The notes under the pieces were generated by a model. That model had not been told where the DNA came from. It made no database searches and saw nothing but the letters and a program-made list of their open reading frames with translations. Positions 4,754 through 58,042 of a DNA stretch of 58,688 nt are shown here, piece after piece (position 1 is the first letter of the stretch; each line of letters begins with the position of its first letter). Source of the stretch: Acanthamoeba castellanii str. Neff (Eukaryota > Discosea > Longamoebia > Acanthamoebidae); contig NW_004457323.1 of the NCBI RefSeq assembly GCF_000313135.1, positions 666,965-725,652 on the forward strand, given 5' to 3'. A program made the translations under genes and the position numbers.

Positions 4754-5452
4754 CTAGCTGCCTGTACAGTGTGCAACATTTTTGTCATGGTGCTTGTGGT
4801 GTAGGTGGTTGCTTTTGCCCTTGCCTTCATTGTTGTCCTGGCCATCCTGGCTGTCCTTCTTGTGCATTAGTTGCTGATGAGGGTGCAGGTGCCCCAGGTG
4901 GGCTTTGCCCTGAATGGTGGCCATGGCAAGGTGCAGACATGCCTTGGCCTGCTTGGCTGTTGTTGTGTTGCCCATGGCATGCTTGAGGAAGGCCTTTGCT
5001 GGCCTTGAGAGTGTGCCAAAGGGTGACATGATGAATGGCACCACCTTGGTGATCAAGCTGTCAGCTACTGCTGGGCTGTATTTTGTGGCCTTGCAGTTGA
5101 CAGCTCAGTTGAAGGCCTTGGCACATGATCTAGCAGGTCCACTGCAGTGGCAGTGGTGGGCAGCCACAGGTCTGTGTAACAGTGCATGGGTGGGTGTGGT
5201 ATGGCACTCAGGGTTGGGCCTTTCTCCTGTCATGGTGTTAACACTTTGAGTGATGCTCTGGTCACTGTATTTGTAGTCCAGGTTGCCACTGCCTTCATCC
5301 CTGTCACTGCTGCTGCTGCAGGTGTCATTGTTCTTGTCATCTTGACCATCTTTGCCCTCATCCTGTTGCCCTTGTTGTTGTTGTTGTTGAGTGTGTTGTC
5401 CATGGCAAAGGGCATGGCAGTGTAGTGCCCAGGGCACATGGTTTCCACACAC
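4754..5452 (-). pseudogene. Reverse-transcriptase-type retroelement fragment, CpG-depleted
   Basis: Read on the minus strand, the segment around 5105-4960 gives KATKYSPAVADSLITKVVPF and then IMSPFGTLSRPAKAFLKHAM. This resembles the C-terminal tail of protist retroelement ORFs, where the polymerase is followed by a 'vvPFvisxfG.lgxxAxxfL' block. A Gln/Asp/Ser-rich stretch (about 5400-5280) lies upstream and a His/Lys-rich tail downstream. No polymerase core is present, so it is a 3' fragment. CpG is nearly absent and TpG/CpA abundant, as in the transposon copy next to it. The family call rests on recall of a motif pattern and is tentative. Confidence 0.4.
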
Positions 5453-5477
5453 AGTGGCAATCAGCTGCAGCCCCTAT

Positions 5478-5592
5478 CACTCACACACCATGTTCACAAA
5501 AGTACTGCTTTCGCTGCACATACACATATATCACTTGTGCAGATTTTACTTAACAAAAGGTGCCACTGGCACCTTTTTCTGGACACAGTGTT
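5478..5592 (+). repeat. Detached 115-bp transposon terminus
   Basis: This block is nearly identical to 56292-56406, the right end of the complete transposon, and lies in the same orientation. It includes the inner palindrome AAAAGGTGCCACTGGCACC and the terminal GGACACAGTGTT. The differences seen include CCGGA to CTGGA, a CpG loss. The decayed copy beside it is inverted relative to the complete copy, so this end faces the wrong way to be that copy's own terminus. It must come from another insertion or a local rearrangement. Confidence 0.8.
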
Positions 5593-5602
5593 TGTTGTTC
5601 TT

Positions 5603-8106: not shown

Positions 8107-8108
8107 TC

Positions 8109-8218
8109 ACCAGGTTTTTTATTTGTTGACTTGCTTCCTGATGTGCATCAGGTTTTTTATTTGTCAACTCTTATCCCAATGTGCATCAGTTTTATTTTGT
8201 TGTCCTGTTTCCTGATGG
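8109..8218 (+). repeat. Palindrome/T-run units upstream of the decayed transposase gene
   Basis: About three degenerate units (palindrome core such as CTGATGTGCATCAG, then TTTTTTATTTGTCAAC). They are oriented sense to the transposase reading frame and equivalent to 51746-51881 of the complete copy. They now abut the broken accessory exon, so the promoter deletion probably had one breakpoint inside this array. Confidence 0.85.
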
Positions 8219-8420
8219 CATCAGGTTTGTAAAGTTGTCCCATATTTTCCTCAACTCCACTGTTATTAGTTGTGAGCTCATTGGTCTGGAGTTCCAAGAA
8301 ACACAATGTTCACCAATCCAGAAAAACCACATCTATCCATTATGTGGCCATTGGGAATCAGAGGTATCACACCAAATGTTTAAATACCTCTCCAGTGTCA
8401 TTCAGTTGTTCTCCACCTCA

Positions 8421-10693: not shown

Positions 10694-10802
10694 ATAAAAC
10701 TTCTCTTCTCTGTGTACATTCAAATTCCACAGTGTTTTTATCTCATGTACACCTGTTTTTAGTTTCATTAAAAAGTACCACTGTCACCTTTTTCTGGACA
10801 CA

Positions 10803-10991
10803 GTGTTTCTTGTGGGTCAGTACTGCAACAACACTACTCCCTGTTGCAACCCCAATCTGGGTTTCAGCCTGGAAGTGAGGTGCAATCAAGTGTACCACCA
10901 TTGCACATTGTGCCTGCCCATAGGAGAAATCTGCAACCAGGGTGACCTGTGTTGCACCGGCCACCACTGTCCATCCACTGGTATGTGCTAA
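10803..10991 (+). CDS. Cysteine-rich (CC-motif) protein fragment, 5' end replaced by the transposon
   Basis: The open frame begins within the last bases of the transposon end (GTGTT, 10803-10807) and runs to TAA at 10989-10991. It encodes about 60 residues with 10 cysteines, in the spacing YCNNTTPCCNP ... RCN ... CTLC ... EICNQGDLCC ... HHCPSTGMC. The paired-Cys pattern is typical of small secreted disulfide-knot domains. AATAAA overlaps the stop (TGCTAATAAAG), a plausible poly(A) signal. The transposon end therefore sits inside what was a coding exon of a cysteine-rich host gene. No signal peptide remains. The function is unknown. Confidence 0.5.
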   Translation: MFLVGQYCNNTTPCCNPNLGFSLEVRCNQVYHHCTLCLPIGEICNQGDLCCTGHHCPSTGMC

Positions 10992-16100: not shown

Positions 16101-17885
16101 GTCGCGTTGGCCATGAATGCGTCAGTGGTCTTGGCGATGGTCTTGGTGGTCTCAGCGATGCGCTCAACCGTCAGCGCAATCAATGGCGCAGTGTGGATCT
16201 CATTACAGATGCTCTTGATTTCATTGCAGATGCTGTTGATCTCACTCTCAATGGATGTGAGGTCAATGACTGGAGCCTCTACAACAATCCCATGGATGGC
16301 CTCTTGGATCTCAATGGCCTTCTTGAGGAGCTGCCGATCACGTGCCTTGGATGCTTGTGCGGCTTGATAGATGGCATTGATGCTGCCGCTGTTGTCATGC
16401 TGTTGGAAAACCGGGGGAGCCGGGCTGGGCGATGGCATGGGCTCAGGCTTGACGCCTGGCGGATGCTCCTTTTTGACCTCCTTCTTGATCTTCTTGAGTT
16501 GCCCACTGACATCGTTGCAGATCATCTCCTTAATCTCCAGTATGCCCTGCAAGATGTTGGTCGTGTCCTCCTGCTTGACAATGATGGGGCATGCTGGCGT
16601 TGGTGCTGGTGGGGGAGGTGGTGGTGGTGCCTGTGGGATGTGTCAGTGATTGATGGCCTTGATCTGGATCTGCTGGATCTTGTGTGACGTCGTGATCTGG
16701 GATTCTTGAACCTTGGCCATGATGTCGTTGAGATGGTTCTGGATTGGGTCAACCACGGTCTTGATGGCGGTCACCCCATTCATCACATTGTTGATTTGGT
16801 TGATGATTGCTGGATCCTGTTGCTGTGTCACATGTTGCACGGCAGGCACTGGTGTGGCTGTGCTGGCTATCTGGATGTTGCTGATGGTGGTGGTGATATG
16901 TGTCTTGGCATTGTGCACCATGTCTGTGATCTGCTTGGTGTTGTTGGGTGCATGTGGTGTGTCGGCGAGGGCCTTGATGCGCTGATTGATGCCCTTGAGC
17001 CTGATCTTGAGTGATCTGATGGTGGCCTGCAGGTTGGCCGTGGTGGCGGGCACAATGAGCGCCTGGATGTCGCCGTGGATGGCCATGAGCTGATGGTGGA
17101 GGGCATTGGATATGGTGCTGGCCTTGAGGCTCTGGTTGATCTTGGCCAGCTGCGTCTTGGTCTCATGGGTGATGTGCTCAATGGCGCGCTTGAAGGTCAC
17201 CTCGTCGCTCATGTGGATGACGCGACCGCTTGGATTAACATTCTTGAGTGCGGTCTCGATCTGGGCCACCTGCTTCTTGAACTCGTCCTGCTGGGTGGTC
17301 TTGAGTTCGCGGATCTCATCCTGCACCTGTTTGTGCTGCCTCTCGATTGCCTCGACGATCGCACCGCTGCCGGAATCGTCGTGGATGACGGTCGGTGCTG
17401 GTGCCGGTGCCTTGATGTTGCGCAGCATCTCAACGGCGACGGCCACATCGCGCTGCAGATTCGCCAACACGGGCGCCGTGGCGTCCGCCGCTTGGGGCGC
17501 ATCATTGTGGCGCTCGGCCACCGCCTTGAGCTTGCGCGTGACCGCCTTGAGTTCTCCGGCAGCGCGCACAGCCGATACGTTGGAGACGTCCGATCCGTGC
17601 TCGACGATCTCCTTGATCGACGTGACGATCCCTTCGATGCGGTCGATGGTCTCAACCACGGGCACCATGACGGTCACGTTTTGCGACGACGAGCGGACAG
17701 GACCACGACGGTGGTACCGTCCCTCGTCCGGATCCGAAATCGGATATGTGGATCTGCTCGGTATCGCTGTCGCCGTCGGTGTGGCGGATGACGGTGTGCG
17801 ACTTGGTGGTGCTCTTGCGCGTGCCGGTCGAACGGATCTCGCCCGATGTCGATGAGGCGTCCTTCTTCTTCCTGGATGACGACAT
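16088..17885 (-). pseudogene. Coiled-coil viral-like protein with a frameshift and an in-frame TGA
   Basis: The best start is ATG at 17885 (MSSSRKKKDASSTSGEIRST). That frame fails near 17700 and coding continues in the frame holding QNVTVMVPVVETIDRIEGIV, so there is an indel at about 17690-17740. The second frame is helical, with repeated 'I..ik' heptads, to a TGA at 16643-16645. It is then open again in the same frame for 30 codons (IPQAPPPPPPPAPTPACPII) into the 154-residue block starting MQGILEIKEMICND and ending at 16088. The simplest reading is one ~600-aa gene broken by one indel and one nonsense codon. Stop readthrough or two separate genes are alternatives. A TTTATATTT element lies about 25-35 bp upstream of the start. 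Role unknown, probably structural. Confidence 0.55.
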
Positions 17886-31507: not shown

Positions 31508-32006
31508 CTACCATCGTTTCGGTGGAAAGAGCCACAAGAGCTTGCTCTTGGGCATGGGGACGTAGCAATAGTGCCAGTCGAATCCAAACCTGTGGATGGC
31601 GCATTGTCGATCGGGACGCTTTTGAAGTCGACGGCGTAGCGTTGGTTGATGATGTCGGCAGCACCGCAGCTGCAGACAAACGAGCAGCCTTGACAGATCG
31701 GCGGGCATACAGCGTCGGATCTTCGGTGGTCTTGTCGGCGCCCAGCTCGATCTCGCCGTCCTTCGACAGGCGGAGGCGCGGAAAGACGGCGTCGACGGTC
31801 CGTGCGGCCTCATCGCGTCCGACAACCACGAACAGGTTGAACAGAGGCCCGCGATCAAACGTGACGTAGCCCACGGCGCCAATCGGGGGAGATCCCTCTC
31901 CGATGGTCGCCCAGTCTTCATCGCTCCCCTTCTCCGCAAATATGAGTTGATTGACGCTGAGGGTGGTCTTGGTGTCGGGGCCGGCGGCGTCGTGGTGCTT
32001 CATCAT
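31508..32006 (-). pseudogene. Unknown viral-like protein, two apparent frameshifts
   Basis: Start MMKHHDAAGPDTKTTLSVNQ at 32006. The frame is good through AVGYVTFDRGPLFNLFVVVG and FPRLRLSKDGEIELGADKTT. After KAARLSA the sensible continuation (DIINQRYAVDFKSVPIDNA) is in a second frame. The end (FGFDWHYCYVPMPKSKLLWL, stop 31508) is in a third. The stop lies only 15 bp from the RhoGEF stop, so the genes converge and the island begins abruptly. Function unknown. Confidence 0.5.
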
Positions 32007-32122
32007 TGCCGATCGTTGGGTGGTGGCGGTGGAATGGTGTGCGTGGCCGCTTTTTATGTGCGTGGCGTGTCGTTGGTTCGGCGACATTTTTGTTCATTGG
32101 CTGTCGTAGAAGCGAACGAATC

Positions 32123-34009
32123 ATGTCTGAGCTTTTTGACACAGGATCCGGGGCATCGGCGTTCGACGTCTTCAACGAACGCGTGGTGCCGCGCAACTAC
32201 ATCGATCATACCTGGAGTGAGGATCTGTACCGTAACCGATCACGCCCGGATGGCGAGCAGCAGCAATACGCGGCCGACGAAGCGGCACCGCTGATCACGT
32301 TCGACGAGGATCCGCGCCGGTACGATCTTCGCGCATCAAGTGAGGCCGGCGCGCTGTGGGACGAATTCCCGCCCGAGATGGGACCGACCTTGCGCCGCGG
32401 CGGTGCCTACATCCCACTCTATCCGCTGGATCCCGAACTGTTTCGTCCGGAGAAGACCACCAACGCGTGGGAGGATGTCTACGGTGAGGCCCAGCGCAAT
32501 CACGATCGCCCAGTCACGCTCAACATTGGCGATCGAGCGCGCGAGCAGATGATCCACGGGGCAGCGCATTATCGACGCAGCGACGAGGGTCAGGAATACG
32601 CCAACGGTGACATGTTCAGCGACGGTCACGAGCGCATCACGTCGGCGTTCCGGCCGTTCATCTATGCGCCCCAACGCTCGGTGCCGATCGAATACCGCGA
32701 GGGTGGCGCCGATCTCGCCGGCCACCAACGCAGCGCGGATCGCGTGGCGCCGTTTGGATTCTTCACCGAGGCGCGCAACGCGTCGGTTCGCGATGCACAC
32801 CGCGCGGCTGAGCGAAGCTCCGGTATCAGTAAGGGTCCGCACGTGCACGGCGAGGTGCGCCATCCGCTCCGGCACGAGATCTCACGGGCGGCCTCGGGTG
32901 TCGCCCACGCCGCGCTCCAGCACTCAGAGGCCGTGCGCGAACGCAACGTCGACGCCGATCACCGTGCCGAGATCTTCAACCCGCTCCAGTTCAACCGACC
33001 CGATCGCGGCGCGGATGCGGCCAAGGAAGCGATGCGCGGCAACGCGCTCACCCTGCGCGCCTACCAGGATCGCGTCAACATCCATCACTACGGTGCTCCG
33101 GCGAGCCGCGTGCGATCGGTGGGGCCCGGTGCTATGAGCCGCGACAGCGTCATCAGCATCCCGGTGATGAAGGAGCTTACGGCCGGAGCGAGACGCGTTG
33201 GTAACGCCTTCGCCGACGCCACAGGCGGCAGCCTCGCGGCCGCACACAACATGACCGACGTGTTCACCTACAACAACACCCAGAAACTGGCGGCTTCTGT
33301 TGCGACCGCGGCCGGTCAGGGTATGGCGCTCAACAACATGCCGGCGATCCACAACGTGCTCATGCCGTTCACCACCGACGGATCCGTCAAGCTCTACGCC
33401 GCCGGCCAGGCGATGCCGACGGGCATGACGGGCGCCTACAACGAGCGCGGGCACAACGCCTACTACAACACCGAGGTCTTTATCAACCCGTTCGCGCTCA
33501 AACAGGCCACCGAGACCGCCTACGCCGGCTACGGTCACGCGGGCGATCCCAACGGCGGCGCTGTGCGCAACGTGCTCATGCCGTTCACCACCGAGGCCTC
33601 CATCAAGCAGGCCACAGATCACTCCTCCGTGGCCGCTCCGGGCAACGGCGCGTACGGCGATCCGGCCCTGTATTCGGCAGCGATGGTGGCCAGCAGTGGC
33701 GACATGATCAAATCGCTCGGCGGACGCGAGGGCATCTCGCATCTGGGCAACGGTGTGCGCGCCCACGGCACCGTCACCGACGAGAACATCAACCCGCGCT
33801 ACCTCGACCACACAAACCGCGACACCTACTCGGAGTTCACGCATGCGGGCGGCGCCGGCATGTCGCGCTGGGCACCTATCGGATCCGAGCCGCTCACGCT
33901 CTACGACGTGCACGAACGCACCGTGTCAACGAGCACTCTGCCCGATGCGTCCATGCTGGCAGCCTTCCAGAACAACCCGCTGGTGCCCGTGCCAGTGCGA
34001 TACCAGTAA
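32123..34009 (+). CDS. 628-aa viral-like structural protein with internal duplication
   Basis: Intron-less; ATG at 32123 (MSELFDTGSGASAFDVFNER), TAA at 34007-34009. The N-terminal half is rich in Arg/Asp/His with PRNYIDHTWSEDLYRNR and RFRPFIYAPQ-like segments. From about residue 370 a roughly 80-residue unit appears twice, each copy ending in NVLMPFTTDGSVK or NVLMPFTTEASIK and preceded by TDVFTYNN or TEVFINPF. The C-terminus has YLDHTNRDTYSEFTHAGGAG. The His/Asn/Tyr-rich composition without transmembrane or enzyme motifs suggests a virion protein. The matching family name escapes me. It is the largest intact gene of island 2. Confidence 0.6.
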   Translation: MSELFDTGSGASAFDVFNERVVPRNYIDHTWSEDLYRNRSRPDGEQQQYAADEAAPLITFDEDPRRYDLRASSEAGALWDEFPPEMGPTLRRGGAYIPLYPLDPELFRPEKTTNAWEDVYGEAQRNHDRPVTLNIGDRAREQMIHGAAHYRRSDEGQEYANGDMFSDGHERITSAFRPFIYAPQRSVPIEYREGGADLAGHQRSADRVAPFGFFTEARNASVRDAHRAAERSSGISKGPHVHGEVRHPLRHEISRAASGVAHAALQHSEAVRERNVDADHRAEIFNPLQFNRPDRGADAAKEAMRGNALTLRAYQDRVNIHHYGAPASRVRSVGPGAMSRDSVISIPVMKELTAGARRVGNAFADATGGSLAAAHNMTDVFTYNNTQKLAASVATAAGQGMALNNMPAIHNVLMPFTTDGSVKLYAAGQAMPTGMTGAYNERGHNAYYNTEVFINPFALKQATETAYAGYGHAGDPNGGAVRNVLMPFTTEASIKQATDHSSVAAPGNGAYGDPALYSAAMVASSGDMIKSLGGREGISHLGNGVRAHGTVTDENINPRYLDHTNRDTYSEFTHAGGAGMSRWAPIGSEPLTLYDVHERTVSTSTLPDASMLAAFQNNPLVPVPVRYQ

Positions 34010-37815: not shown

Positions 37816-38616
37816 ATGCCCAGCACCACCAAGGAACGTTTCGACGCCGCACGCCTCCACATGGCCCGCGAGAACATCGAGCGCGATCCTGCGACCGCCG
37901 AAGAGGAGGACGACGATGATGAGGATGAGGAGGATGAAGACAGTGGTGGCAGAAGTGGTGGCGAGTTCAGCGAGGATGTGGCTGGCCAGGGCTTGTCGCC
38001 GGGGCGGGCTGGTGTGGCGGCGGCCATGCTTGCCGCGGTGCGTGAGGTGCACGGTTTTCGGCGCCTGGCTAAGGCGGCGGTCTGGTTCCCTGATCGTAGT
38101 CTTACTACAGCGCGCGGTCAACACGAGTACGATTTTCTCAAGAAGATCGGGCGGAAGGTCATGGCGGTCGACCGTGACGCGCCTGGCGAGGTCCTCAAGC
38201 TGATCGTGGAGCTCCAGGAGGACATCGAGCGCCGTGCCCACATTGTCGTTGTGGGCGAGGAGGAGGGCTGGGAGACGGCAGGCTGCCTCGAAGAGGACGA
38301 GGGCAGCTTCATCGCCGGGCGGCAGGACAAGCTCGCCGAGGCTCGGAAGAAGGCCGAGAGCCGCAAGAAGGTCCGTAAGGTGGCCCCGGCGGACTCGCTT
38401 TTTCGGTCAGGCCGGGCGGGGCGCAGTCGCGGGGGTACGAGATATCCCGCACCTGCCAGGGACGACCGTGGCGTGCCCGCGACCGGGGACCCCCCTGCTT
38501 CAACGGCGGAGCCGCGGAGCCAGCGACCGGCGGGGAGGAGCGTCACCTGTTACGTGTGCGGTGGCAGCCACTACGCCAAGGAGTGTCCCAAGAAATGGGA
38601 TCGGCCGGCTGCGTGA
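37816..38616 (+). CDS. Gag-like protein with CCHC zinc knuckle
   Basis: 266 aa from ATG 37816. An acidic N-terminus (EEEDDDDEDEEDED) is followed by a helical middle (FLKKIGRKVMAVDRDAPGEV, VLKLIVELQEDIERRAHIVV) and a basic linker. The C-terminal zinc knuckle is CYVCGGSHYAKEC (C-x2-C-x4-H-x4-C). The product should bind element RNA. It overlaps the RT start by 22 bp, so the RT is probably made by reinitiation or frameshift. Confidence 0.8.
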   Translation: MPSTTKERFDAARLHMARENIERDPATAEEEDDDDEDEEDEDSGGRSGGEFSEDVAGQGLSPGRAGVAAAMLAAVREVHGFRRLAKAAVWFPDRSLTTARGQHEYDFLKKIGRKVMAVDRDAPGEVLKLIVELQEDIERRAHIVVVGEEEGWETAGCLEEDEGSFIAGRQDKLAEARKKAESRKKVRKVAPADSLFRSGRAGRSRGGTRYPAPARDDRGVPATGDPPASTAEPRSQRPAGRSVTCYVCGGSHYAKECPKKWDRPAA

Positions 38617-40199
38617 GCCTGCCCCCATTGAGCGAGCCGGTGGACGGGTGTTGGGGAAGCGTCTGCGTGGAGGAGACGGCAGTGGTGGAGGAGCAGGAGG
38701 ACAATCTGGGCGACCTGCCGGCGCTGATCGAGGATGAAAGCGACAGCGAGGAGGAGGGGGAGGACGAGTGGTGGCCGGAGAGCGAGTCGGTGGAGGTGGA
38801 TGGTGAGGAGGGGCTGCTGCAGGGGGAGGGGCCAGTGCCGCTCTCGACGCGGCGCCGGCGGGAGCCCGGGTGGGACGAGCACTACGAGAGCGACGGACTG
38901 GGCGAGACCAGTCCACGCCACCTGGGCACCCCTGGGGCGGGCGTGGTGCCAGTGACGGATCCGGCAGAGCTGTCGGTGGTCGGCCGCCTGCAAGCTCGGG
39001 CAGCGGCGTGGGCCCAGATCGGGGCATCCGACCAGGTCCGTTCGTGGATTGCCCACGGCGTGGCGTTCGAGTTGCGGGCCGAGGTCTCGGAGGACCGGCG
39101 CATCTTCCCGGCGACCCCAGCGCAGCAGACCTGGCTGCTCGCCGAGGTGGAACGCCTGGTCGCCACAGGAGCGGCGGAGCTCATGGGCATCGGCCCGTCC
39201 AAACCTGCCGGCATTCGCTACGTGTCGCCGGTGTTCTGCGTGCCGAAGAAGGGACCGAAAAAATGGCGGCTGGTCATCGACATGCGCCGCATCAACTTGG
39301 GGATAGCCGAGCGGAGGGTGCGGTTCGAAGGGCTGTCGTCGGTGGCCCGAGTGGCCGGGAGGGGGTGGTGGATGATCACTTTCGATCTAGCGCAAGGCTA
39401 CCACCACCTCCTGGTGGAGGAAGAGTCGTGCCAGCTGCTGGGCTTCCGGGTGGGCGACCGCTGGTTCCGCTACCGCGTCCTCCCCTTCGGCCTACGAATC
39501 TCGCCGTGGGTGTTCACGAAAGTGGTGCGCGCCATGGTGCGGGACTGGCGGCGTCAGGGCATCGTCGTGACGTCCTACCTGGACGATTTCGTCGTGATGG
39601 CGCCGGACTGCGAGGCCCTGCGGCGGATCCGCGACACGGTCATTACCCCGACACTGGACCAGCTCAGGTGGCTGCGCGAGCCCACCAAGGGCGAGTGGGA
39701 GCCGACCCAGTGTGCGGAGGTGCTGGCGCTCGTCGTGGTCCGGTGGTCGCACACGTTGCGCAGGCACAGGCCATTGAGCGCCTCGACCTTTGTCAGCCTC
39801 CAGGCGCGTGGCGCGTTCGCAGCAGACAAACTGGCGTGGCCAATCCACCACAAGGAGATGAAACCAGTCGAGCTAGCCGTCGATACGCTGGGGCACTACG
39901 TTGCCGGCCGGTGGGTCGAATTCGAAAGCGACAACGTCATGGTGGTCGCGTACCTGCGCGATGGTGGTGGCCCCGATCCGTGGATGACCGACGTCGTGCG
40001 GCGCGTGTGGCTGAGGGCGGCGGCCGAGGGTTGTGGAGTCTACAACGCGCGGTGGATTCGTGGGAGCACGGACAACAGGGAGGCCGATTGGCTGTCGCGC
40101 TACTCCGACACCGACGATTGGGAGCTCTCCTGGGACACTGTCGCCGAGCTGGAGCAGCAGTTCGGGGGCTGGGACTCGACCGCTTCACCAACAACCTGA
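38595..40199 (+). CDS. Reverse transcriptase-RNase H of YR retrotransposon
   Basis: From ATG 38595 an acidic N-terminus leads to RT motifs: RYVSPVFCVPKKGPKKWRLV, IDMRRINLGI, WMITFDLAQGYHHLLV (motif A, catalytic Asp), RYRVLPFGLRISPWVF (motif B), and SYLDDFVVMA (YxDD catalytic pair). RNase H follows: HKEMKPVELAVDTLGHYVAG (Glu), FESDNVMVVAYLRDGGG (Asp), and STDNREADWLSR (final Asp). The DN...ADWLSR form is that of DIRS-type RNase H. All catalytic residues seen are present. It converts element RNA to DNA. Confidence 0.9.
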   Translation: MGSAGCVSLPPLSEPVDGCWGSVCVEETAVVEEQEDNLGDLPALIEDESDSEEEGEDEWWPESESVEVDGEEGLLQGEGPVPLSTRRRREPGWDEHYESDGLGETSPRHLGTPGAGVVPVTDPAELSVVGRLQARAAAWAQIGASDQVRSWIAHGVAFELRAEVSEDRRIFPATPAQQTWLLAEVERLVATGAAELMGIGPSKPAGIRYVSPVFCVPKKGPKKWRLVIDMRRINLGIAERRVRFEGLSSVARVAGRGWWMITFDLAQGYHHLLVEEESCQLLGFRVGDRWFRYRVLPFGLRISPWVFTKVVRAMVRDWRRQGIVVTSYLDDFVVMAPDCEALRRIRDTVITPTLDQLRWLREPTKGEWEPTQCAEVLALVVVRWSHTLRRHRPLSASTFVSLQARGAFAADKLAWPIHHKEMKPVELAVDTLGHYVAGRWVEFESDNVMVVAYLRDGGGPDPWMTDVVRRVWLRAAAEGCGVYNARWIRGSTDNREADWLSRYSDTDDWELSWDTVAELEQQFGGWDSTASPTT

Positions 40200-43791: not shown

Positions 43792-45103
43792 TCAGTCAAC
43801 AAACTCTGATGGCTCGTCGTCATCCTCTTCCTCTTCGTCCTCGCTGCTGTAGTCGTCGTCAGATGAGCGGGAGGAGTTGGTGCCCGGATCGTCGTCAAAG
43901 AGGAACAGGATCGAGTACGAGCGTTGCAGTTTGGACGCAAAGCGCTCAACAATGTCAGACTGGAGACGCTGGGCGAGCTCGAGGGCCTGCCACGCCTCCT
44001 CCGACACATGGGCCGGTTGGTCCTGGGCCAGGTAGATGGCCAAGGGGCTGCGCTTGCAGGAATGAAACTCGTCAATCCACTTTGACTGCGTCTCGGTCTG
44101 GATGTAGGACAGCGGGTGGTGTGGTGAGGCGTTGATTTGCATCCAGGCTTCGATGATGCTGAAGAAACGGTGGACTTGCACGCGCGTGAGTCCCGCGTCC
44201 ATGAGCCGTTCCACCATTCGACAGTCGACTTGCAGACTGGCGACCAGAGCCTGCATGGCGATCACGAAGCGCACCATGCTTGTGTGGAACTCGGTGTCCC
44301 TGGGGTCCTCGGCAGACCGCCACAAGTCGCTGAACGCGTTCGAGTCGCGCGCGCTTAGCCAGTCCGCCACTAGCAGCCGCAAAGGGTCGAGATCCCAGCC
44401 CGCCTGGCGCGGTTGTATGACGACCAAGGATTCGCACAATCGCTTCCACTCCTCGTCGGCGTAGTCGTCGACTTTGGGCCTCCTCGGTGTCCCATCGCCG
44501 TTTCTTAGTCGGACCCAGCCAAGAAACATGTCGCTGTGGCGCAGCGCGGCGTTGAGCGCCACGCCGTTGCGTGTCGCGAAGGCTCGGTCGAGTGCCTCTG
44601 CGAGCAATTCCATGGCGTCCTTGAAGGCCGACAAAGAATGCGACGAGGTGTCCATGGCCAAGCCGTCCAATTGCATCAACATGGCCTCGGCCTGGTCGGC
44701 CACCTCCATGGCCGAGGCCAACGCCTCGAGCCACGCCAGCACATCGGTTTGCCTTGGGATGAGCAGCGCTGGACCCTGGCCAAAGTAGCCCGGTGCTACG
44801 ACTTGCGGCAACTTGCCGTCGTCATATATGTCGGCCAACACCACAACATCCCAGCCGAAGCGGCTGTCCTCCCCCTTGGCCGCGCCTGCAAGCCTGTTGA
44901 GGTCGAACAGTTTGTGCTCACCTTGGTCCTCTAGGATTGCGGCTGCCTTCCAAAAGAAGCGCCAGGCTGGCGCTATCCAAGCCGACGACGCGCTGCAACA
45001 CCGAAGCCAAGGTCGAGCGGTTGCCCGTCATGGCCTTGGCCATCGTCTGAGGAGTCACCGCCGCATCCGCCGGCCAAAGCGAATTCAAGGGGTTCTTGTA
45101 CAT
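43792..45103 (-). pseudogene. Unknown helical protein with acidic tail (~430 aa), one frameshift
   Basis: The first 50 residues (MYKNPLNSLWPADAAVTPQT, STLASVLQRVVGLDSASLAL) run from 45103. They then continue in another frame from about 44955 (WKAAAILEDQGEHKLFDLNR, LADIYDDGKLPQVVAPGYFG), implying a one-base indel. The rest is helical (ALNAALRHSDMFLGWVRLRN, VHRFFSIIEAWMQINASPHH) with a final Asp/Glu/Ser tail. No family recognised, no introns in the long part. The beginning may instead be a downstream exon of the secreted gene upstream (45573), since a GT...CAG intron could join them. Confidence 0.5.
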
Positions 45104-47720: not shown

Positions 47721-48973
47721 CGCGTGTGGGTGTTGGAGAGTAATCGCAACAACAACCACGCAAAAGCGCTTTATGTACCCTCTCCCTCAAGTGCCATCAA
47801 CAGATTTTCTCCAGCATGTCGTGTGGCCTCTGCATGTTCGTCGCCCACTGGCCCAGAGGAACTCAGCTGCATGGCTGCACCTACAGGGCAGGATGTGGCT
47901 GGGCTCTTGATGTGCCTGTTGAGCGCAGTGTTGATCAAGTCCACCAAGCACATCACCTCTCTTCTACCGCCTCTGGCTCTCTTGACGATTGGCATCCTGA
48001 TCCTGTCTGCGCCATCGTGTTGTGCGTCGTATGAGTCATGTGTAATGTGAGTTGTGCAGTCTGTGTCCATCGTTGGTGAGTGGTGAGTGGACAAGTTGCG
48101 GTCCCAGGGGCTGCCGTGGCTCAACAGTTAGGTCGAGGGGAATATCAGTGGCGATTAAGGGAACTACGCAGAAAAAATGGCTTCCCAAGTTTGCCACTGG
48201 ACTTTGTGGTTTTCAGCATCCGCCCGCTGCATGGCTTGATCTGTAGTTTTGGTCGCGCCGCCTAATTTGGTGCTGAATCAGCCAAGCACATGGCACACTG
48301 CAGAATGGGAAGGTAATGGGCCAAGTTGTGGTGAGGATGATGTGTGGATCTTGCAGTCAAATCGTCAACCCTCCGTGCTAGGCCACAGCTCATGCTTGAG
48401 TCCCAGAAGCTCTCCACTTGCATATTGTGGCACCCAGCCACTCACCATCCACCAATACTTGTATTGTTTGGTATTCTCATTCAACATAACCCTTCTCTGG
48501 TTTCAACCTTGGAGGGCAACATTTGGACTACTGACCTGACTGTGAAATGCTGAGTGTGGCCCTCATGGTGGTGCAACACAACATAGCTGTGGCTTTGGTA
48601 TAGGCTGCACTGTCACATCATGACAACATCATCTCCATCATTATTTGTTTGTCAGAGTGTTGAGTAACTGGTGTTAGTGTTGGGTAACAGGCATGTGATT
48701 GGCTGTTGGATGGTGGGGATTATTTCTTGGGTCTCTTGAAGAATGGAGGGCTTGGTGTGACAGTGGGTTCAGTTGACTGGCGCTTTGATGGTGATTGGTC
48801 TGAAAGGTATTGGTGGGGTGTGGGATGGTGTGAGATGAGCAGTTGGGCCACCCAAGCGCTGGCTGAGGGGTTTGGGGTGGTGGTGACAGATGGATGGCTG
48901 AATGACTATGACAACAACAATAACAACAGCAAAGCCATGATCCAGTCTGGCAAGTTGCTTGGTGGTGGTGGCA
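47721..48973. other. Spacer with CpG-poor tract left of the complete transposon
   Basis: A hydrophobic frame at 47871-48050 (LLMCLLSAVLIKSTKHITSL) could be a tiny membrane peptide but has no support. From about 48240 the sequence becomes CpG-poor and TG-rich like 3.9-5.4 kb and 56.4-58.7 kb. I see no gene. Nucleotides GGCA at 48970-48973 are repeated at 56407-56410 and may be a target-site duplication. Confidence 0.45.
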
Positions 48974-49011
48974 AACACTGTGTCCGGAAAAAGGTGACAG
49001 TGGTACTTTTT
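48974..49011 (+). repeat. Left terminal inverted repeat
   Basis: Begins AACACTGTGTCCGGAAAAAG, then GTGACAGTGGTACTTTTT. It pairs with 56369-56406 with only a few mismatches. The same sequence, complemented, ends the decayed copy at 10807. Confidence 0.92.
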
Positions 49012-49087
49012 AATGAAACTAAAAACAGGTGTACATGAGATAAAAACACTGTGGAATTTGAATGTACACAGAGAAGAGAAGTTTTAT

Positions 49088-51522
49088 TTACAGGTGTCTA
49101 AATATTTCTTGAAGGGTGGGTGGGGGAACTCCAGTGTTGGCGTTAAAGTCAAAGCCACAAGCTAAAACAGACCCCATTGGAACAGTGCTTTCTGAGCCAT
49201 GGTCAGTCCAGCGTCCATTAGCGAAGTTCCACCAGTGGACATGGAGCCTCTTACGGAGAACGCTGATGATCTTGCATATCCAAAAGTCCTGAGTGTCTTC
49301 ATCAGCATCAGCCCAGACAGCAACCCACTGACCAGGAGCAAAGTTGAAACGTTGGACTTGGGGTGTAGTCCATGTGTGGACAACCTTGACCCTGGTTTGG
49401 AGACGGAACAATGGACCATCAAGGAGAGGATTAGTGATGGGGTGAGCTGTGAGTCCATCAAAAATCAAGTTATCGCAGGTGGGTTGGGAGCTTGAAACAA
49501 GAGCCTCATGTGCTTCAAAGATATCAGCCCACTCACTAAGCTCAGACTCAAGGAACAGTGGAGCACAGCAGTTGTCAGCCAACTCAGTAAGCACTTCAGG
49601 CGGAAATTGCTGAGGCGGGATAGTGAAAGGTGCTCCTGATGTGGTTTGTGTAAGTTGTGATATCTTTTGGTAGGGTGTGTGCAACATAGTGAGGAGCAAA
49701 CCAGTCGGAATGGATGTGAGAAGCTGGTATGGCTCAGAGTAGGCTCCTTGGGTGTGGTAGGCTTTGTCCCGGATCACTGGTTTGCCTGAAGCATCACGGA
49801 AAAAATGGAAAACATGGGGGGTGGAGTGACCAGTCAGGCCATGCATGTGATTTCCAAGCCAGCTCTTCCAGTCCCAAACAGTTTCAAGGGTGTGCAGGGA
49901 AGGAGCTGGGCCGGTGGATCGGTAAGCCTGCTCAAGAAAACCAGAAAGTTGACTGAAATTTGAAGATGAAGTTAGGAAGGTGAACAAAAAGGGGCAATCA
50001 TTAATGCTTACAGAAAAAACCGATGTGCATCGGGGTAATGAGTCGACAAATAAAAAACCCGATGCGCATCGGGAAAACAATCAAGACAAAAAAAGAGTGA
50101 TGACCATTACCTTGGGGTGTGAATGGAAGAGGTATGGAACTTTGTCTGAGCAGTGGAGAAGAGCTGGTCGATGTCTTCATGTGTATGCCCAACCAACAGA
50201 AAGCTCAGGTAGACCTCTTGGAACATATCCAGGCTGACCAGGAGACTGAGGAAGGCAAGCATGAAGACATTCTTGTTCTCAGCAGCACAATTGTCAGCCT
50301 GCAGGTAGAGGATAGAAGGGCGAGTGTTGGAGGCGGTGTTAGTCAAAATGCGAGTTCGGATGTGGTGAAAGAGTGTGGAGATGACAAGGTTAGCATCTTT
50401 TGGCCAAAAGGGCTGAGGGTGTAGAAAGAGGTGTTTGCCATGGCTGTGGTCAATGAGACCACCAAGAACCATGGTGAACCGGTTGCCAAAGTGCATCCAG
50501 GCCTTTGGCACAGGAGTGTGGGTGGGGAGAGGGAGTGGGTTGGAGTAGTCAATGATCAGGCTCATGTAAAGACTTGGTTGACTTGTTGCTTGGTGGCATC
50601 GGTCCTTGTAACTGAGGCGTTCTGCAGAAGAAAGTGCAAGGTGGTGAGTCCGTGCACTTGCAAACTGTGCTGCCTCAAGAGGGCTTTTGGCTCTCAAGCG
50701 TTGCTGTGCAAAGTCAATGCAAGCAGAGCACTTGCCAAGGCGTGAGTTCTTAGGCAACTTCACATAGGCAAAGTGGGAAGCAATGTGTTTGAGCATAGCA
50801 GAATAGGTGAGCACAGGAACAGTTGAGGGATGAGCATTGGCACACATAGAGTGCACTTCTCGCCAAGTCAAAGAAATAGGTAAGTGGATGGTGGCATCAG
50901 GAAGGCGATCTCCAATAACATCAAAGAAAGTGGTTAGCCATAAGTGGGTATTTGAGGTGGCATTTGAGGGATGTTGCTGTCCAGTGGTGTTGTGTATTGG
51001 GACACACCCACCAGAAATGAAAATCTGTTTAGCAGAACGCCACTTCTTCCTGCTGAAACCATGCACCTTGTAGAGCAGCAATGTGAGGTGGGATAACAAA
51101 TGTAAGGCCGCAATAAAAAGGGTTGGCACCTTTTGGAAAGCATTCAAACACACTGGAGAACCATTGAGTCGCAACTTGAAGTGGCACTCAGGTAGTGTTG
51201 AGACACAGCTGGCTGACATGATGTTGATGATGTAGGTGGTGCGATCGCGTTCATTGAGATCTGCAAAGGGTTGTGTGATGTTGAGAATGTCAGCAAAGGA
51301 GAAGTTATCAAGGCATTTCTTACGACAACAGAATGATGCAAGAACAGTATTGATGTGATCATTGCTGACAAGCAGGCGACGCTTTTTGGGGATCCGCTCT
51401 TCAGCAGTTCAGAGAACTCACTTCCTTGGAGTATGAGCTGTGGCTCATAAGGACTGGCCGAAGATTGGGGATAGTAGGGTAGAGGCGAGGACCTCTGTGT
51501 TGGTGGGGAGAGAGTGGCTCAT
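49088..51522 (-). CDS. Transposase-like protein (QADN...ENKN / GHTHEDIDQ family)
   Basis: A multi-exon gene. The likely start is MSHSLPTNTEV at 51522, though splicing of the first exons is unresolved. An NLS-like IPKKRR (about 51390) precedes a CCRKKCLDNFSFADIL zinc/Cys block. After an intron (FQK|VHGFSRKKW) come CSACIDF, MSLIIDYSNPLPLPTHTP (first Asp), HGKHLFLHPQPFW, SILYLQADNCAAENKNVFML (second Asp) and SFLLVGHTHEDIDQLFS (acidic third position). This layout fits an RNase-H/DDE fold of the widespread 'ENKN...HTHEDID' proteins (DUF7869 as I recall). The C-terminal part has PGQWVAVWADADEDTQDFWI, CKIISV, resembling a BAH/Tudor-like module, and ends IFRHL with TAA at 49088-49090. Inferred to mobilise the element. 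Confidence 0.75.
50014..50073 (-). repeat. Two palindrome/T-run units in the transposase intron
   Basis: Read with the gene: CCCGATGCGCATCGGG, then TTTTTTATTTGTCGAC, then a second palindrome CCCGATGCACATCGG and another T-run. The intron runs from GTAATGG (about 50105) to TTTCAG (about 49955). Confidence 0.92.
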
Positions 51523-51745
51523 TGAGGTGGAGAACAACTGAATGACACTGGAGAGGTATTTAAACATTTGGTGTGATACCTCCGATTCCCAACGGCCACA
51601 TAACGGATAGATGTGGTTTTTCTGGATTGGTGAACTTTGTGTTTCTGGAACTCCAGACCAATGAGCTCACAACTAATAACAGTGGAGTTGAGGAAAATAC
51701 AGGACAACTTTAAACACCCGACACCATCGGGAAACAGGACAACAA

Positions 51746-51881
51746 AATAAAACCGATGCGCATCGGGATAAGAGTCGACAAATAAAAAACCCGATGCGCA
51801 TCGGGAAGCAAGTCGACAAATAAAAAACCCGATGCGCATCGAGAAGCAAGTTGACAAATAACAAACCCGATGCGCCTCGGG
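51746..51881 (-). repeat. Four palindrome/T-run units upstream of the transposase gene
   Basis: Four units with cores GATGCGCATC (one GATGCGCCTC on the plus strand). They are oriented so that the T-run follows the palindrome in the transposase sense, and sit between the transposase start and the divergent promoter, probably in its 5' leader or first intron. Confidence 0.9.
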
Positions 51882-51983
51882 AAGATCTCAAAGCTCTCCA
51901 GACCACATGAAATTTCGCCACCTGTTTCCTGTTCCTCCAATTAGAATTTAATGCGGACAGCTTTTTTGTAGACCTGCACTACC

Positions 51984-51990
51984 TATAAAA
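51984..51990 (+). promoter_or_regulatory. TATA box of accessory gene
   Basis: TATAAAA lies 64 bp before the accessory gene ATG at 52054, in the gap between the divergent genes. This region is deleted in the decayed copy. Confidence 0.6.
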
Positions 51991-52053
51991 CGTCGAACAA
52001 CCTGTTTTGATCATTTTGTTGTACCACCCACGTTCAACACACACTTCCTTTCA

Positions 52054-55000
52054 ATGTCTTCTCGCCAAGCTGCCTCCGGACTTCCCAACTTCTCGGCCAT
52101 GTCGGCCACCGAGCTTCTAGCAAGCTCCCGTAATGCCCTAGCGAAGGTGCACCAGCAACCCAACACCAAGGTTATCACCAAGGCGTACATCGACGGGTTG
52201 CTGCAGGCGCGGGGCCAAGACACTGGCTCCACGAAGCAGCAGTCTCTCAAACTGCTAACGCAGTGTACGCCAACGATAGCAGAGGAGGGAGCAAAAGAGC
52301 CGATGGACGTGGAAGAGGAGGAGGAGGAGAGGAAGGAAAAGGAGGCAGAGGAGGAGGAAGAGCAGGAGAAGGAGCTGGAGGAGGAGGAGGAGGAGGAGAA
52401 GCAGGGGGAGGAGCAGAAGGAGGAGGAGAAGGGGGTGGAGCTGGAGGAGGACATAGTGGAGGAGGAGAAAGAGGAGGAGAAGGGAGAGGAGGAGCAGGAG
52501 GAGGAGTTGGAGGTGAAGGAGCTGGAGGAGGAGGAGCACCAAGCGCCGCCAAGGAAGCGCAAGCTGGTAGAGGAAGAGCGCAAGGAGAGGAAACGCGCAC
52601 GCCCAGAGGTGATTGACGTGGACAAGGAGATGGAGGCGGAGGAGATCAAGACCAAGCCTCACAAGCAGCCGGTGGTGCACCAGTACTCCGCAGGCAACAC
52701 CGAAGAGCAACGCAAGGAGGCCGCCAGACTACTTGCCCTGCCCGACCTGGAGCTAGGTATGTACACTTTGTGTGTTTTTACTGTTCACCACACTGACAAG
52801 TTTCAAACCGGTGCGCATCGGTTTTTTTATTTGTGGACTCCTTTCCCAATGCGCATCGGGTTTTTTATTTGTGGACTCTTTTCCCGATGCGCATCGGTTT
52901 TTTTATTTGTGGACTCTTTTCCCGATGCGCATCGGGTTTTTTATTTGTCGACTCTTTTCCCGATGCGCATCGGGTTTTTTATTTGTCGACTCTTTTCCCA
53001 ATGCGCATCAGGTTTTTTATTTGTCGACTCTTTTCCCAATGCGCATCGGGTTTTTATTTGTTGACTCTTTTCCTGATGCGCATCGGTTTTTTATTTGTTG
53101 ACTCTTTTCCCAATGCGCATCGGGTTTTATTTTCGACCTGTGAGAACCATGTTCTCTAACAGTTTGTGTTGCTTACCTCAACCTTACTATTCAGAAACGA
53201 AAATTCATACGCTCCCGAATTTCCAATCGCTTCAGTCCAACCCCAACATCGTCAGCGCCAGCCTTCGGGTGACCCGCAACGACCAAGCAATTCGCCAGCA
53301 GAAGGAGCAGCTCGATTGCATCGACCCTTCAACTTTGCACCGTACCTGGGTTCAACCCACATCACGCCACCTTGACGTTCGGAACTGCACCATCTTTGGT
53401 ACAACTCCTCTTTTCGTTCTGGCAATGTGTAGATGCTTTCACTTGCTAACCGCCTGCACTGCCATCAGAACGGCATCGCCCAGTGACAGTTCCAGGAATT
53501 CGTCACTTGCTGCAGTCTGTTGTGGATGGAGGGTGTCTCACAACCAAGCCCTTCATTGTTAGATTTCTCAATGAAGATGAGCGCCTTGACCGAAACAACG
53601 TCGATGAGTTTGGTATTACTTCCCACACCACTTCGTTTTAGCTGCACTCATGGCCATTCAGTTTTTAGGCTATTCGCAATTCCCGATGCGCATCGGTTTT
53701 TTTGGGTACTAACTTTTAACCTTCCAGAGGCCGTCGATTGTAACCACAGAGTTGTGGTCTGGAACCTCATCGAGCACTGGCAGTGGGAGAATGTCTACGA
53801 AGTTGTGCCAGCAGCTGCAGGGATGGAACTCAGCTGGATCATCCTCAACCGCATCTCCGGCTTCGAGAACTACATCAACTCGGCGGGCTCAGTCGTCCTG
53901 AATGCTTTCGAGAAGGCCCTGAACTACTACACCCTCGGCCAAAACCCACTCTTCCAGATCACACGTGGCAAAAAAACTGTTACCGACTACAATGCTCTCG
54001 CTGAGCACCTGGTATGTCCACCACCTTCGTATTTCAAACCATTACTCATCACCCCACACCTCACAGAAAACGCTCAAGGGTCATGCTGCACCAAAGCCCA
54101 CCACTCTGCAGAAGTACTCGACTACCTTAAGGGCCCTGTTCCATGCTCCAGGAGTGGTGGAGTATGTTATTTCTACTCTAACTCTTCACCTTTGTTTTGA
54201 GTCCTCACTAACTGTTCCCCTTTCCAGTCTTATCAAGGAACTCAATCGCCTCGTTCCAGAGGGTCAGGTGTTCATCTCCCTTGACAACCTCAACTCTGGT
54301 GCCTTCAGGGAATTGAGTGCCAACGACATGATCGCTGTGCTTCGTCATTATAAGCGCTATCAACACCAAGCCCCTTCCAAGAGTATGTCCTTTCTTTTTA
54401 GTTCTTTTGTTCTTCTCCCCACAAGTCTAACTACTTCCCTCTTGCCAGAGAACTTCTGGTCGCTAATCACCAACCACTGGAGCATGATCAAAAGGCAGAT
54501 GGAGGCCTTTCGTCAGGCCGTTCATGCAGCCACGGAGGCTGACTGCTGCTGCGAAGATCCTGAGGAGCTTCGCCACATCTGGGACCGGATCTGCGTTGCG
54601 GAATACATCGCGCCGCGCGGTAAAAACATTGAGATCGAGCAGCCCCACAGCATCACCTCCGAAGTTGTCGACACGTTCCACAAGCACCTGTTCCAGTCGA
54701 AACTTCTCAGCGATGAGGCAGAGGAGACCACACCTCGCCAGTTACGAGGGGAGATTGCACGTGCCACCGCAGCTTCTCGAGCAGAGGAGGCATCCCTTGC
54801 CTCAACGTCCACAAGCGAACAGCGCCGGCGTCTTTCTGCGTTGGCCAAGGGGAAAATGGTATAAATCAACTCCTTCCTGTTCCAATTCACACCCCATTAC
54901 TTTCACTTACACCACTATTATCTGACTTCAGCCCGCGGTACCCACTGCCGCTGAAGCTTCTGGCACCACTCCGACCACCCCAACCAGTACGTTTTCATTT

Positions 55001-56133
55001 TGCTGGTAAAGTTCCAAGCTCACCACATGCTTGTTCTTTACAGCTACCAAGAAACGTGGCAAGGGTAAGGCTGAAGAGGAAAAGTCGCCATCTACCATCA
55101 AGCACAAGGCAGAGCTTGCTCTCCAGAAAAAGTATCTCCCCCAATTCACTGAGCCGCTCACCAAGCTTCTTGGCCAACCAACGCAATTCCATGAATGGCC
55201 GGTGCGTTTATCGGCCCGCATTGCTTTCCTGATGCGCATCGGTTTTTTATTTGTCGACACTTTTCCCGATGCGCATCGGTTTTTCACTTATTCCTGTTGT
55301 CCACTGGTTTTTTTCTTCCACAGGTGTTGATCTACATGCATGACTTTACCATCCACAGTGTGGACATTCCTCTCAACATCGACGATGCAGCAACTCGCCT
55401 ATCGAAGTCTTACGGCGTCGGATTCTACATCTCCTCATCTCCCTCCAACATCGCCAACGCCATCACCTCACTCGAGTCACACTCCACCCTCCAGGTCTTC
55501 CGCCTACTCCACTTCTACTACAGCTCCCCAACTTACTCCAGCTCCATGCCCACCTCTGAACCTCTCATCAGTGGCTTCGATGTTCTCATCTTCAGCCACA
55601 AGAGGGTTAACATGTCCGCCATCTGGCATCCTCTGGCCAGCGACACCATCCCCAAACCCTTCTGCTATCTGCACCACATCCCCATCCCACACCCAACGCG
55701 TGAGGTTGTCCGCTCTGCTCCTGCTTTCCTCACTGCTCAATCATCGGACCGCACCCCGCTTCACATCGGCCTCTACAGCTTCCTCATCCAGAGCTTAGAG
55801 CTTCCCAATCCTTCTCCCCACCCCATCACATCGCCCACCACCCCCTACCACATTCTCTATGAGGCAAATCCCACCTACTACCTCTCCTTCTGTGCTGCCC
55901 TTTACTCCAGCTTTGTCTGCCTCTCCTCTACCCCCATAGCAGAGGGCAACATCTCCTCTCTCGGCAACTGGCTCCTCACCTTCCACTCTAAATTCCTGGA
56001 GGAGTCAGATCTCACAGCCATCACTTCCTTCCTACAAGGCCTAACTTCACATCCTGCCCTTGCCCCTCTCACACCCAAGACCAGCTCCTCCTCCTCTTCC
56101 GGTCCACAGAAAGTGCGGAAGTCCATTGGCTAA
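52054..56133 (+). CDS. Transposon accessory gene: Lys/Glu-rich nuclear-type protein, about 10 exons
   Basis: Exon 1 (MSSRQAASGLPNFSAMSATE) contains a 120-residue run of Glu/Lys with few other residues, then NLS-like RKRKLVEEERKERKRARPEV. Later exons encode a folded part: VPGIRHLLQSVVDGGCLTTK, WQWENVYEVVPAAAGMELSW, FISLDNLNSGAFRELSANDM and ENFWSLITNHWSMIKRQMEA. After these come KKRGKGKAEEEKSP with KKYLPQFTEPLTKLLGQPTQ, and a final large exon (about 55324-56133) with YMHDFTIHSVDIPLNIDDAA and KVRKSIG before TAA at 56131-56133. GT-AG introns join all blocks in frame, so the gene appears intact. No known domain is recognised. Pairing with the transposase and nuclear signals suggest a DNA- or chromatin-binding partner needed for mobility. 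Confidence 0.7.
52807..53132 (+). repeat. Nine-unit palindrome/T-run array in accessory intron 1
   Basis: Nine units of about 38-40 bp: a 14-16-bp palindrome (best form CCCGATGCGCATCGGG), TTTTTTATTTGTCGAC (or GTGGAC) and CTCTTTTC. The whole array lies inside the intron from GTATGTAC (about 52757) to TTCAG (about 53198). All units have the same orientation, sense to the gene. Confidence 0.95.
53684..53703 (+). repeat. Single palindrome/T-run unit in an accessory intron
   Basis: CCCGATGCGCATCGG followed by TTTTTTT. It lies in the intron between EFG and EAVDCNHR, just before the branch-point-like TACTAAC and the splice acceptor CCTTCCAG. Confidence 0.9.
55227..55280 (+). repeat. Two palindrome/T-run units in the last accessory intron
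   Basis: CCTGATGCGCATCGG-TTTTTTATTTGTCGACA and CCCGATGCGCATCGG-TTTTTC. They lie between HEWP|GTGCG (about 55200) and the acceptor CCACAG (about 55323). Confidence 0.9.
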
Positions 56134-56368
56134 TGTTTCCCTCCACTCTGTTCTGTTCCTCATTCCAACAAAATACATTTGCCCTTTTTTACACTTATGC
56201 CTTGAAATTCTTCATTGGCCCCATCTGCTTTTACCATGACCTACACCATTTTTCCCTGTTTTGCCACTCTCTGTACATAATTTGGCAAAACCACTCACAC
56301 ACCATGTTCACAAAAGTACTGCTTTCGCTGCACATACACATATATCACTTGTACAGATTTTACTTAAC
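56134..56368. other. 3' region of the transposon
   Basis: AT-rich 3' flank of the accessory gene. 56292-56368 is shared with the detached end at 5478-5554. No gene. Confidence 0.6.
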
Positions 56369-56406
56369 AAAAGGTGCCACTGGCACCTTTTTCCGGACAC
56401 AGTGTT
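56369..56406 (-). repeat. Right terminal inverted repeat
   Basis: Plus strand reads AAAAGGTGCCACTGGCACC, then TTTTTCCGGACACAGTGTT. It is the complement of 48974-49011 with few mismatches. Confidence 0.92.
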
Positions 56407-57987
56407 GGCAGGACATCATCTCCATTGCAACCACCACCACCAATGATGATGATGACACTGATGACTTGACCATGATGTGGCGTGGCCACCATATGGAGTC
56501 AACGTTGATGACTTGGTCTTGAAGCCTTCTGATGTCATCATTGTCCCTTGGTGGTTGGCCAGCAGTGTCACCACCACTGATGTTGACGTCAATGATGATG
56601 ATGATGATGTCTTGGTAGTGGTATGGATGGAGGGGTAGAGAAAGCCAGGAGACTGAGACTAGGTCCTCAAATGGTTCCTGCTGGAGTCTTCCATCCATCT
56701 GTACCATTCCAACCCAGATCTGTCCTGAACTCAAGTCTCCAACAACTATGATGAAACAACATTTGGTGGTGGCTGATGGTATGGATGATGATCACCAATG
56801 GCATCTTGGATCTTGAAGTTTGGCAAGCCCTACCATACAGACAGTTGGTTGGAGGTGAAGAGGACTAAGGAAAAACAACCCATCCTTCCCCACCCCACCC
56901 TTCCAAAACCTTCAGCCTCCTCCTACTCCTTGAGACACCTCCAAAAGTTGTTGACATCCACATGGTCTGGATTTGTGCGCCGTCTTTCAGTTTCTCTGAG
57001 CCAGCCTTCACACCATCCCATGGGCAACTGCATGAATGGGATGCTTGGCCCTGTGGCCCTCTTGGAGCATGTGCAACAAAACAAGAGTTCTCTCCTCAAG
57101 ATCCAACCCTACCACTCACCCTTGGCACTGGTTCCACAAGACACTTGACACAATTAGAGGGCTCATGTCAAAACACAGGCATGCTGGCGACAACAGACCA
57201 GTTTTAGTGCAGACTTTTGCCACTTCACCATTTGAGTTGTGTGTTGTCAATGTTTTGCTTGCATCCACAACAGTTTCCCTTTTCAATCCACACAGCATGC
57301 AGCATGCTGTTGGCCTTGGGGTCAAACTGCATGCTGTTGTGGTGGGGGTGGTCATCTTCCTTTTTGCTCTTACCACAATGACATGTTTTTGTAACTGGGA
57401 CCAAGACTGGCCTGCCATAGGTACAGTTCACAGTTTTTTTTCATTTACAGATCATTGTACAACACTAAGGTGCACCTCTGCGGCCACCCCATGGTGGTGT
57501 TTGTCCATGGCACCAGCACTTCTTCTTCCATGGCCAATGTCTTGGAATTTCTGCAACAAGAGAACCTTGCTTTGCCACAATGCAGTCAACTCTTGTCGTT
57601 GGCACAATGCCTTTCCAGCAAGGGACACTAACCTTAAGGGAGTTTCCACTGCCACCACCACCAAAAGTGATGAAGTTGTCATTGTCATTGGACAATCATT
57701 GGTCTTACATTCCCTTGGTCCTAAAGTGGCTCACAACAATGGCCATGCCATCCACCAAAGGCAGTTGAGGGTGGTCATAGTGGTTCACCCTTTCATTGCC
57801 CAGTTGCTGGATGACCATCAGATAGTGCTGATTGGAACTGTTGCATTCTTGAGCGGCACAGCAGCAGGCACCATGGAATCCCAGCATGCAACCACCAGGG
57901 GCCAGATGGCTCCATAGGTTCTCACCCTCCAGCAGGGGCTTGAAGTGGAGGGGACAGGTGGGGAAGCAACAGCAGTTGTTGAGGAGC
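56407..57987. other. CpG-poor degenerate tract
   Basis: GAT/CAC-type simple patterns (ATGATGATGATGATG near 56593-56608) and TG/CA-rich sequence with almost no CpG. Long open stretches (for example 57036-57917) are hydrophobic and biased but show no conserved motif. They look like methylation-decayed repeat DNA of the type seen at 3.9-5.4 kb. I see no supported gene. Confidence 0.5.
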
Positions 57988-58021
<34 letters not shown>

Positions 58022-58042
58022 GGTTAGGGTTAGGGTTAGGGG
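57988..58042. repeat. Interstitial telomeric repeat (TTAGGG)n
   Basis: About eight TTAGGG units, one with an extra T (TTTAGGG). Unrelated sequence continues beyond it for at least 646 bp, so it is internal. Confidence 0.95.

Follow-up and report, generated by a model that had tools for sequence, protein, structure and literature searches.

What reads the short palindromic repeats that lie in the introns, and between the genes, of a DNA transposon in Acanthamoeba castellanii: are they signals in RNA, binding sites in DNA, or neither? The window analysed here is the whole 58,688-nt stretch of genomic DNA that contains this transposon. Each repeat unit has a 16-bp palindromic core and a T-rich arm, TTTATTTGTCGAC. 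Scanning the window with up to three mismatches gave 24 matches against 0.38 expected, and none of 100 shuffled sequences reached 24. Eighteen of the matches lie within one element, transposon B (48974–56406), and six within a decayed copy at 5.5–10.8 kb. The features are as follows, with genes and introns as predicted:

48974–56406 (unstranded): DNA transposon B, 7.4 kb, with terminal inverted repeats (TIRs) AACACTGTGTCCGG and a 4-bp target duplication, GGCA
48970–48973 and 56407–56410: copies of the GGCA target duplication flanking transposon B
49088–49952 (−): transposase exon 2, covering the remainder of DUF7869 and the C-terminal region
49953–50110 (−): transposase intron, two units (50019–50034 and 50058–50073)
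50111–51408 (−): transposase exon 1, DUF7869 with predicted RNase H-like core
51752–51881 (−): intergenic array of four units, in the promoter or leader of the divergently transcribed transposase gene
52054–56133 (+): accessory gene, 10 predicted exons, 1005 amino acids, acidic N-terminal region, no family match
52757–53194 (+): accessory intron 1, 438 nt, nine units at 52807–53124 with a period of 37–38 bp
53613–53727 (+): accessory intron 3, 115 nt, one unit (53682–53697)
55202–55323 (+): accessory intron 9, 122 nt, two units (55228–55243 and 55265–55280) and a degenerate third reaching the acceptor
5478–10812 (unstranded): copy A, with rearrangement and CpG decay; 12 units found (seven in intron 1, one in intron 3, two intergenic, two in the transposase intron)

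A matching 4-bp duplication was read by eye in all nine copies that have both ends. Each end of transposon B also contains a smaller inverted repeat (48980–49005 and 56368–56395, AAAAGGTGCCACTGGCACCTTTT on the right). Both transposase exons matched only PF25273 (DUF7869) at E ≤ 1, and the predicted structure has an RNase H-like catalytic core with conserved acids, as expected of a DDE-type enzyme. The intron models are predictions from reading frames, splice signals and homology. At the transposase intron the DUF7869 profile continues from one exon into the other, with profile positions 9–125 in exon 1 and 126–190 in exon 2. In window copy B there are stops upstream of 51408, taken here as a provisional 5′ limit of the gene.

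Predicted splicing of the accessory gene at GT...AG ends gives a single open frame of 1005 codons. The pieces of its product that were scanned matched no Pfam family above the cut-off, and a homology search, in which scoring was limited to the 7989 candidates sharing the most words with it, gave none at E ≤ 0.001. The last exon has a poor predicted fold (pLDDT 41), and no DNA-binding domain was recognisable in the Pfam scan of the pieces or in this poorly folded exon. Among the genomic matches, the last exon is stop-free in seven of at least 249 residues (L036, L039, L041, L042, L047, L049 and L055) and has stops in L046 and L050; many copies carry stops in transposase exon 1.

The numbers of units given by the original prediction were confirmed at each place: nine at 52807–53124, four at 51752–51881, two at 50019–50073, one at 53682 and two at 55228–55280. 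Its statement that exons are free of units also held, with none of the 18 in a predicted exon of transposon B, although by our gene model ∼71% of the element is coding. The T-run is in the sense direction for both genes in 18 of 18 units, as had been described; a stricter rule leaves the unit at 51866, which has an interrupted run, uncallable. The four units assigned to the transposase leader do lie between the two gene starts, but this region may be promoter rather than leader. The single unit of intron 3 is immediately 5′ of a branch-point-like TACTAAC. The outermost units are ∼1.0 kb (left) and ∼1.1 kb (right) from the ends of the element.

The intron-1 array is open in all three sense frames, but a coding role was rejected: copies differ here by steps of 37–38 bp, and splicing restores the frame of the accessory gene. 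One frame of the array, used as a protein query, gave nothing at E ≤ 0.01. There were no exact matches to the unit in viral contigs or in prokaryote genome contigs. The exact palindrome was likewise absent from the literature searched, and no comparable element was found in the titles and abstracts of papers on palindromic or internal transposon repeats.

We then considered the other copies of the family (family 1). Eighteen further loci (L035–L052) and the two window copies, 20 in total, were mapped onto transposon B; the count leaves out other copies and fragments, for example those at C84, C113, C94, C154 and C175. The same five slots accounted for 176 of 183 matches. The seven off-slot matches were one intron-9 unit missed in the mapping, three units from a diverged element in L044 and three strays. 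Because the copies share ancestry, the 176 units cannot be counted as that many independent events; five inherited slots amount to about five. Three-mismatch matches with neither a T-run nor an A-run were dropped before counting. In the strict orientation count, 167 of the 176 slot units had the T-run in the sense direction, two had a reversed arm and seven were uncalled (five with an interrupted sense run and two adjoining a reversed arm). The two units with a reversed arm, at L036 2923 and L045 2772, are both in the intergenic array and have an A-run on one side and the full reversed arm on the other. Unit number varied from 3 to 9 in intron 1 among copies with no evident break there, and was exactly one in intron 3 in all 12 copies with a unit detected there. 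Copy A has a right-end fragment (5478–5592) in direct orientation, with the remainder inverted.

A second family is represented by L053 with L056 (C142) and by L054 (C78), with matching arrays also at C48. Over four aligned pieces, its transposase shares 47–78% (L053) and 31–81% (L054) of amino acids with that of family 1. At fourfold sites 80 of 194 positions are identical between L053 and family 1, or 26 of 54 with CpG-type sites removed; the overall value of 41% would make the families well diverged, short of saturation. The palindrome is identical to that of family 1 save for CpG decay. Units were found in slots that read as homologous. These are intron 1, the transposase intron, with two units, and the intergenic array, which has five units in L053 and two in L054; none were seen in intron 3 or intron 9. 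All are sense-oriented except for one reversed arm adjoining an intron-1 unit (L053 160). By eye, most spacers in each of the three slots are 20 nt long and start with AG, compared with 21–23 nt and a starting T-run in the multi-unit slots of family 1. The palindrome thus appears to be constant between the two families while the spacer changes alike across slots.

More distant relatives depart from this arrangement. The diverged element in L044 (∼4600–6740), a single copy, carries three units at 5625–5712, in the homologous intron 1, with the T-rich arm antisense to the gene. In a third clade, L058 (C124) and L057 (C173), where the last accessory exon is 27–29% identical, the palindromes are ∼100 bp apart and intronic as read, with no constant T-run directly after them. 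L058 has nine sites matching a degenerate pattern in 3 kb, none of them inside the five coding matches supplied. These CpG-decayed sites point to TCCGACGCGCGTCGGA as the form of the palindrome in this clade, which would differ from that of family 1 at two base pairs, each altered on both arms; a GCGC centre is common to the undecayed sites of both clades. Genome-wide, the degenerate TCCGACGCGCGTCGGA pattern gave 35 matches per strand (37 places, counted by hand), compared with control values of 0 and 1. Because the search patterns are themselves symmetric, they impose part of the symmetry seen in decayed sites; independent support comes from the near-empty control and from two sites that are exact and undecayed. 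Both of these sites belong to copies of a short element (∼460 bp) that has ends matching those of the third-clade elements at C180 and C51 and no internal match to the transposase or the accessory protein. This short element (e.g. L061 555–1016 and L060 798–1260) matches 78 pieces of the genome, many of them ends only. Half of the central palindrome was lost in 3 of the 13 copies examined, and most of the others have CpG transitions. L059, a distant DUF7869 element (33–35% in the transposase), has no site at up to one mismatch and no convincing accessory-gene match, with ∼2.1 of its 7.0 kb masked. The link between the sites and the accessory gene rests on this one partly masked element with neither.

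The copies have undergone extensive CpG loss. The observed/expected CpG ratio is 0.56 in copy B and 0.06 in copy A, compared with 1.06 for the window at 12–48 kb. The three CpGs of the unit were kept in 1, 24 and 5 of 130 units pooled from the 19 other copies, and those lost had become TpG and CpA in about equal shares. Such decay implies DNA methylation of the copies, being the mark expected of it. Within units the GCGC was kept at 34 of 199 sites and elsewhere in the element at 25 of 118 (P = 0.46), giving no footprint, and the arm mutations of decayed units retained no symmetry (P = 0.21).

These observations bear on three explanations for the units other than recognition by an element-encoded protein. 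The original prediction favoured a signal in the nascent RNA, with a hairpin and U-tract that slow, end or attenuate transcription, or tune splicing. The T-run is indeed sense in all five slots of family 1 and, one reversed arm excepted, in the three slots read in the second family; the combination of palindrome and T-run resembles a terminator, and the degenerate unit at the intron 9 acceptor supplies a pyrimidine tract. For family 1, the non-coding place and sense orientation on which the RNA interpretation was built stand, but they do not generalize to relatives. A hairpin with a sense U-tract, present in family 1, fails in both the L044 relative and the L058 clade: the L044 units are antisense in a homologous intron and the third clade has no constant T-run. 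In these relatives the outcome is thus the one that the original prediction had named as refuting it. In addition, the intergenic array of two family 1 copies contains a reversed arm, and the site is present in the ∼460-bp derivative, which has neither gene. The sense hairpin is weak (z = −1.2, with 27 of 200 shuffles folding equally well or better) compared with the opposite strand (z = −2.2), the unit-free introns of the accessory gene are likewise T-rich (T 0.37, A 0.21), and an Rfam search gave no match at the gathering score. Units of families 1 and 2 share with intrinsic (rho-independent) terminators an inverted repeat followed by a T-run, but they occur in spliced, eukaryotic-type genes, and the T-run is inconstant or inverted in relatives. 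Pol II is not known to terminate at a hairpin with a U-tract. A terminator or attenuator RNA is the least supported of the three options originally raised, and we regard an RNA signal as quite improbable.

A site for a host transcription factor, captured to drive both genes as promoter and intronic enhancer, would explain a CpG palindrome with a GCGC core placed between divergent gene starts and in introns. Allowing up to two mismatches, units occur at 50 places in the genome; sorted by hand, 35 are in copies or relatives of transposon B and 15 elsewhere. The latter do not exceed the 18 places found with a reversed-pattern control, so no enrichment is seen beyond the elements. The genome also holds two clades with different symmetric versions of the site, which element-specific readers fit better, and a host factor appears improbable. 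The units might instead be a functionless, unstable tandem repeat that arose once, was spread by recombination among the element's non-coding gaps and is merely tolerated. The variable number of units in intron 1, deletion breakpoints read within units in L038, L044 and L046, and spacers that are similar inside each family are all as expected of such a repeat. It stays alive as an explanation because decayed copies show neither footprint nor arm symmetry, no DNA-binding domain was found, and half-palindromes have been lost from the ∼460-bp derivative. It accounts poorly for a palindrome that is the same, save for CpG decay, despite 41% fourfold identity between families, for a symmetric variant in another clade with a spacing of ∼100 bp rather than 38 bp, and for the constant single unit of intron 3. 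We consider it unlikely.

The remaining explanation, and on sequence grounds the best supported of those originally put forward, is a binding site for a protein of the element. We put at about even the chance that the units act as double-stranded DNA and are bound by a dimeric protein that the element itself encodes. A dimeric DNA-binding protein fits the features that persist: a 16-bp dyad, its placement in non-coding gaps and its clade-specific versions. In its favour stand the recurrence of five slots among the copies, the palindrome kept in the second family while the spacer changed, the two-arm difference in the third clade, the common GCGC centre and the site in the ∼460-bp derivative. 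The accessory protein is the likelier candidate reader, because the transposase would be expected to read the terminal repeats. The palindrome would be the recognized core and the T-rich arm a family-specific extension or spacer, and sites would be confined to non-coding gaps since exons would not tolerate them. Binding could act in transposition, in the element's control of its own two divergent genes, or in both; with 3–5 CpGs per site, it might be controlled by DNA methylation. Counting against protein sites are their position, which is not subterminal, together with the missing CpG footprint, the missing arm symmetry, the half-site losses and an accessory protein in which no DNA-binding domain was recognised.

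More tentatively, and with clearly less than an even chance of being correct, this may be a DUF7869 clade in which the cis-sites of a two-protein system lie in introns and a shared promoter and in which candidate site and reader co-evolve, with a perfect dyad particular to each clade, changed on both arms and concertedly among the slots. If the clades do hold distinct versions of the site in one genome, protein/site co-evolution would be directly testable in vitro.

The plant CACTA transposons (En/Spm, Tgm) are the closest working analogue of transposon B. In these elements the repeats bound by TNPA-type proteins vary from family to family and combine a GC-rich with an AT-rich part, and methylation has been suggested to hinder this binding (PMC2613891). 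Shared features are a transposase with a poorly conserved second protein, and many copies of a short family-specific motif with GC-rich and AT-rich parts (PMC2613891). The sites of transposon B could work as TNPA sites do, but internally placed. Here the motif is a dyad and lies in introns and between genes rather than subterminally, and whereas binding has been demonstrated for TNPA, binding by a transposon B protein is our proposal. CACTA TIRs start with CACTA or CACTG. The TIR here is AACACTGTGTCC, and AACACTGTGTCCGG begins with neither. The transposase carries DUF7869, with no match to a tnp2-type domain at E ≤ 1. The target duplication is 4 bp in 9/9 two-ended copies, rather than the 3 bp given for CACTA (PMC2613891). 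Duplication length, transposase and repeat position together rule out CACTA identity.

A 4-bp target duplication is also characteristic of the Sola superfamily. The duplication length of transposon B agrees with that superfamily. DUF7869 (PF25273) proteins, to which both transposase exons match and whose core is predicted to be RNase H-like, also occur in mollusc, sea urchin and lancelet entries. The literature searched contains no description of DUF7869 and does not name it, so there is no described DUF7869 element for comparison. Transposon B places DUF7869 in a complete DNA transposon that has ends, a partner gene and a target duplication, as well as candidate sites for protein binding.

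Elsewhere in the window, an open frame at 38379–40199 encodes a reverse transcriptase (PF00078) and is probably part of a retroelement, and one at 2272–3258 matches the Beta-lactamase family (PF00144). Long open frames at 13656–16121, 31961–34009 and 43792–45027 had no Pfam match at E ≤ 0.01. Close to the end of the window, at 57988–58040, there is a telomere-like tract of TTAGGG repeats.
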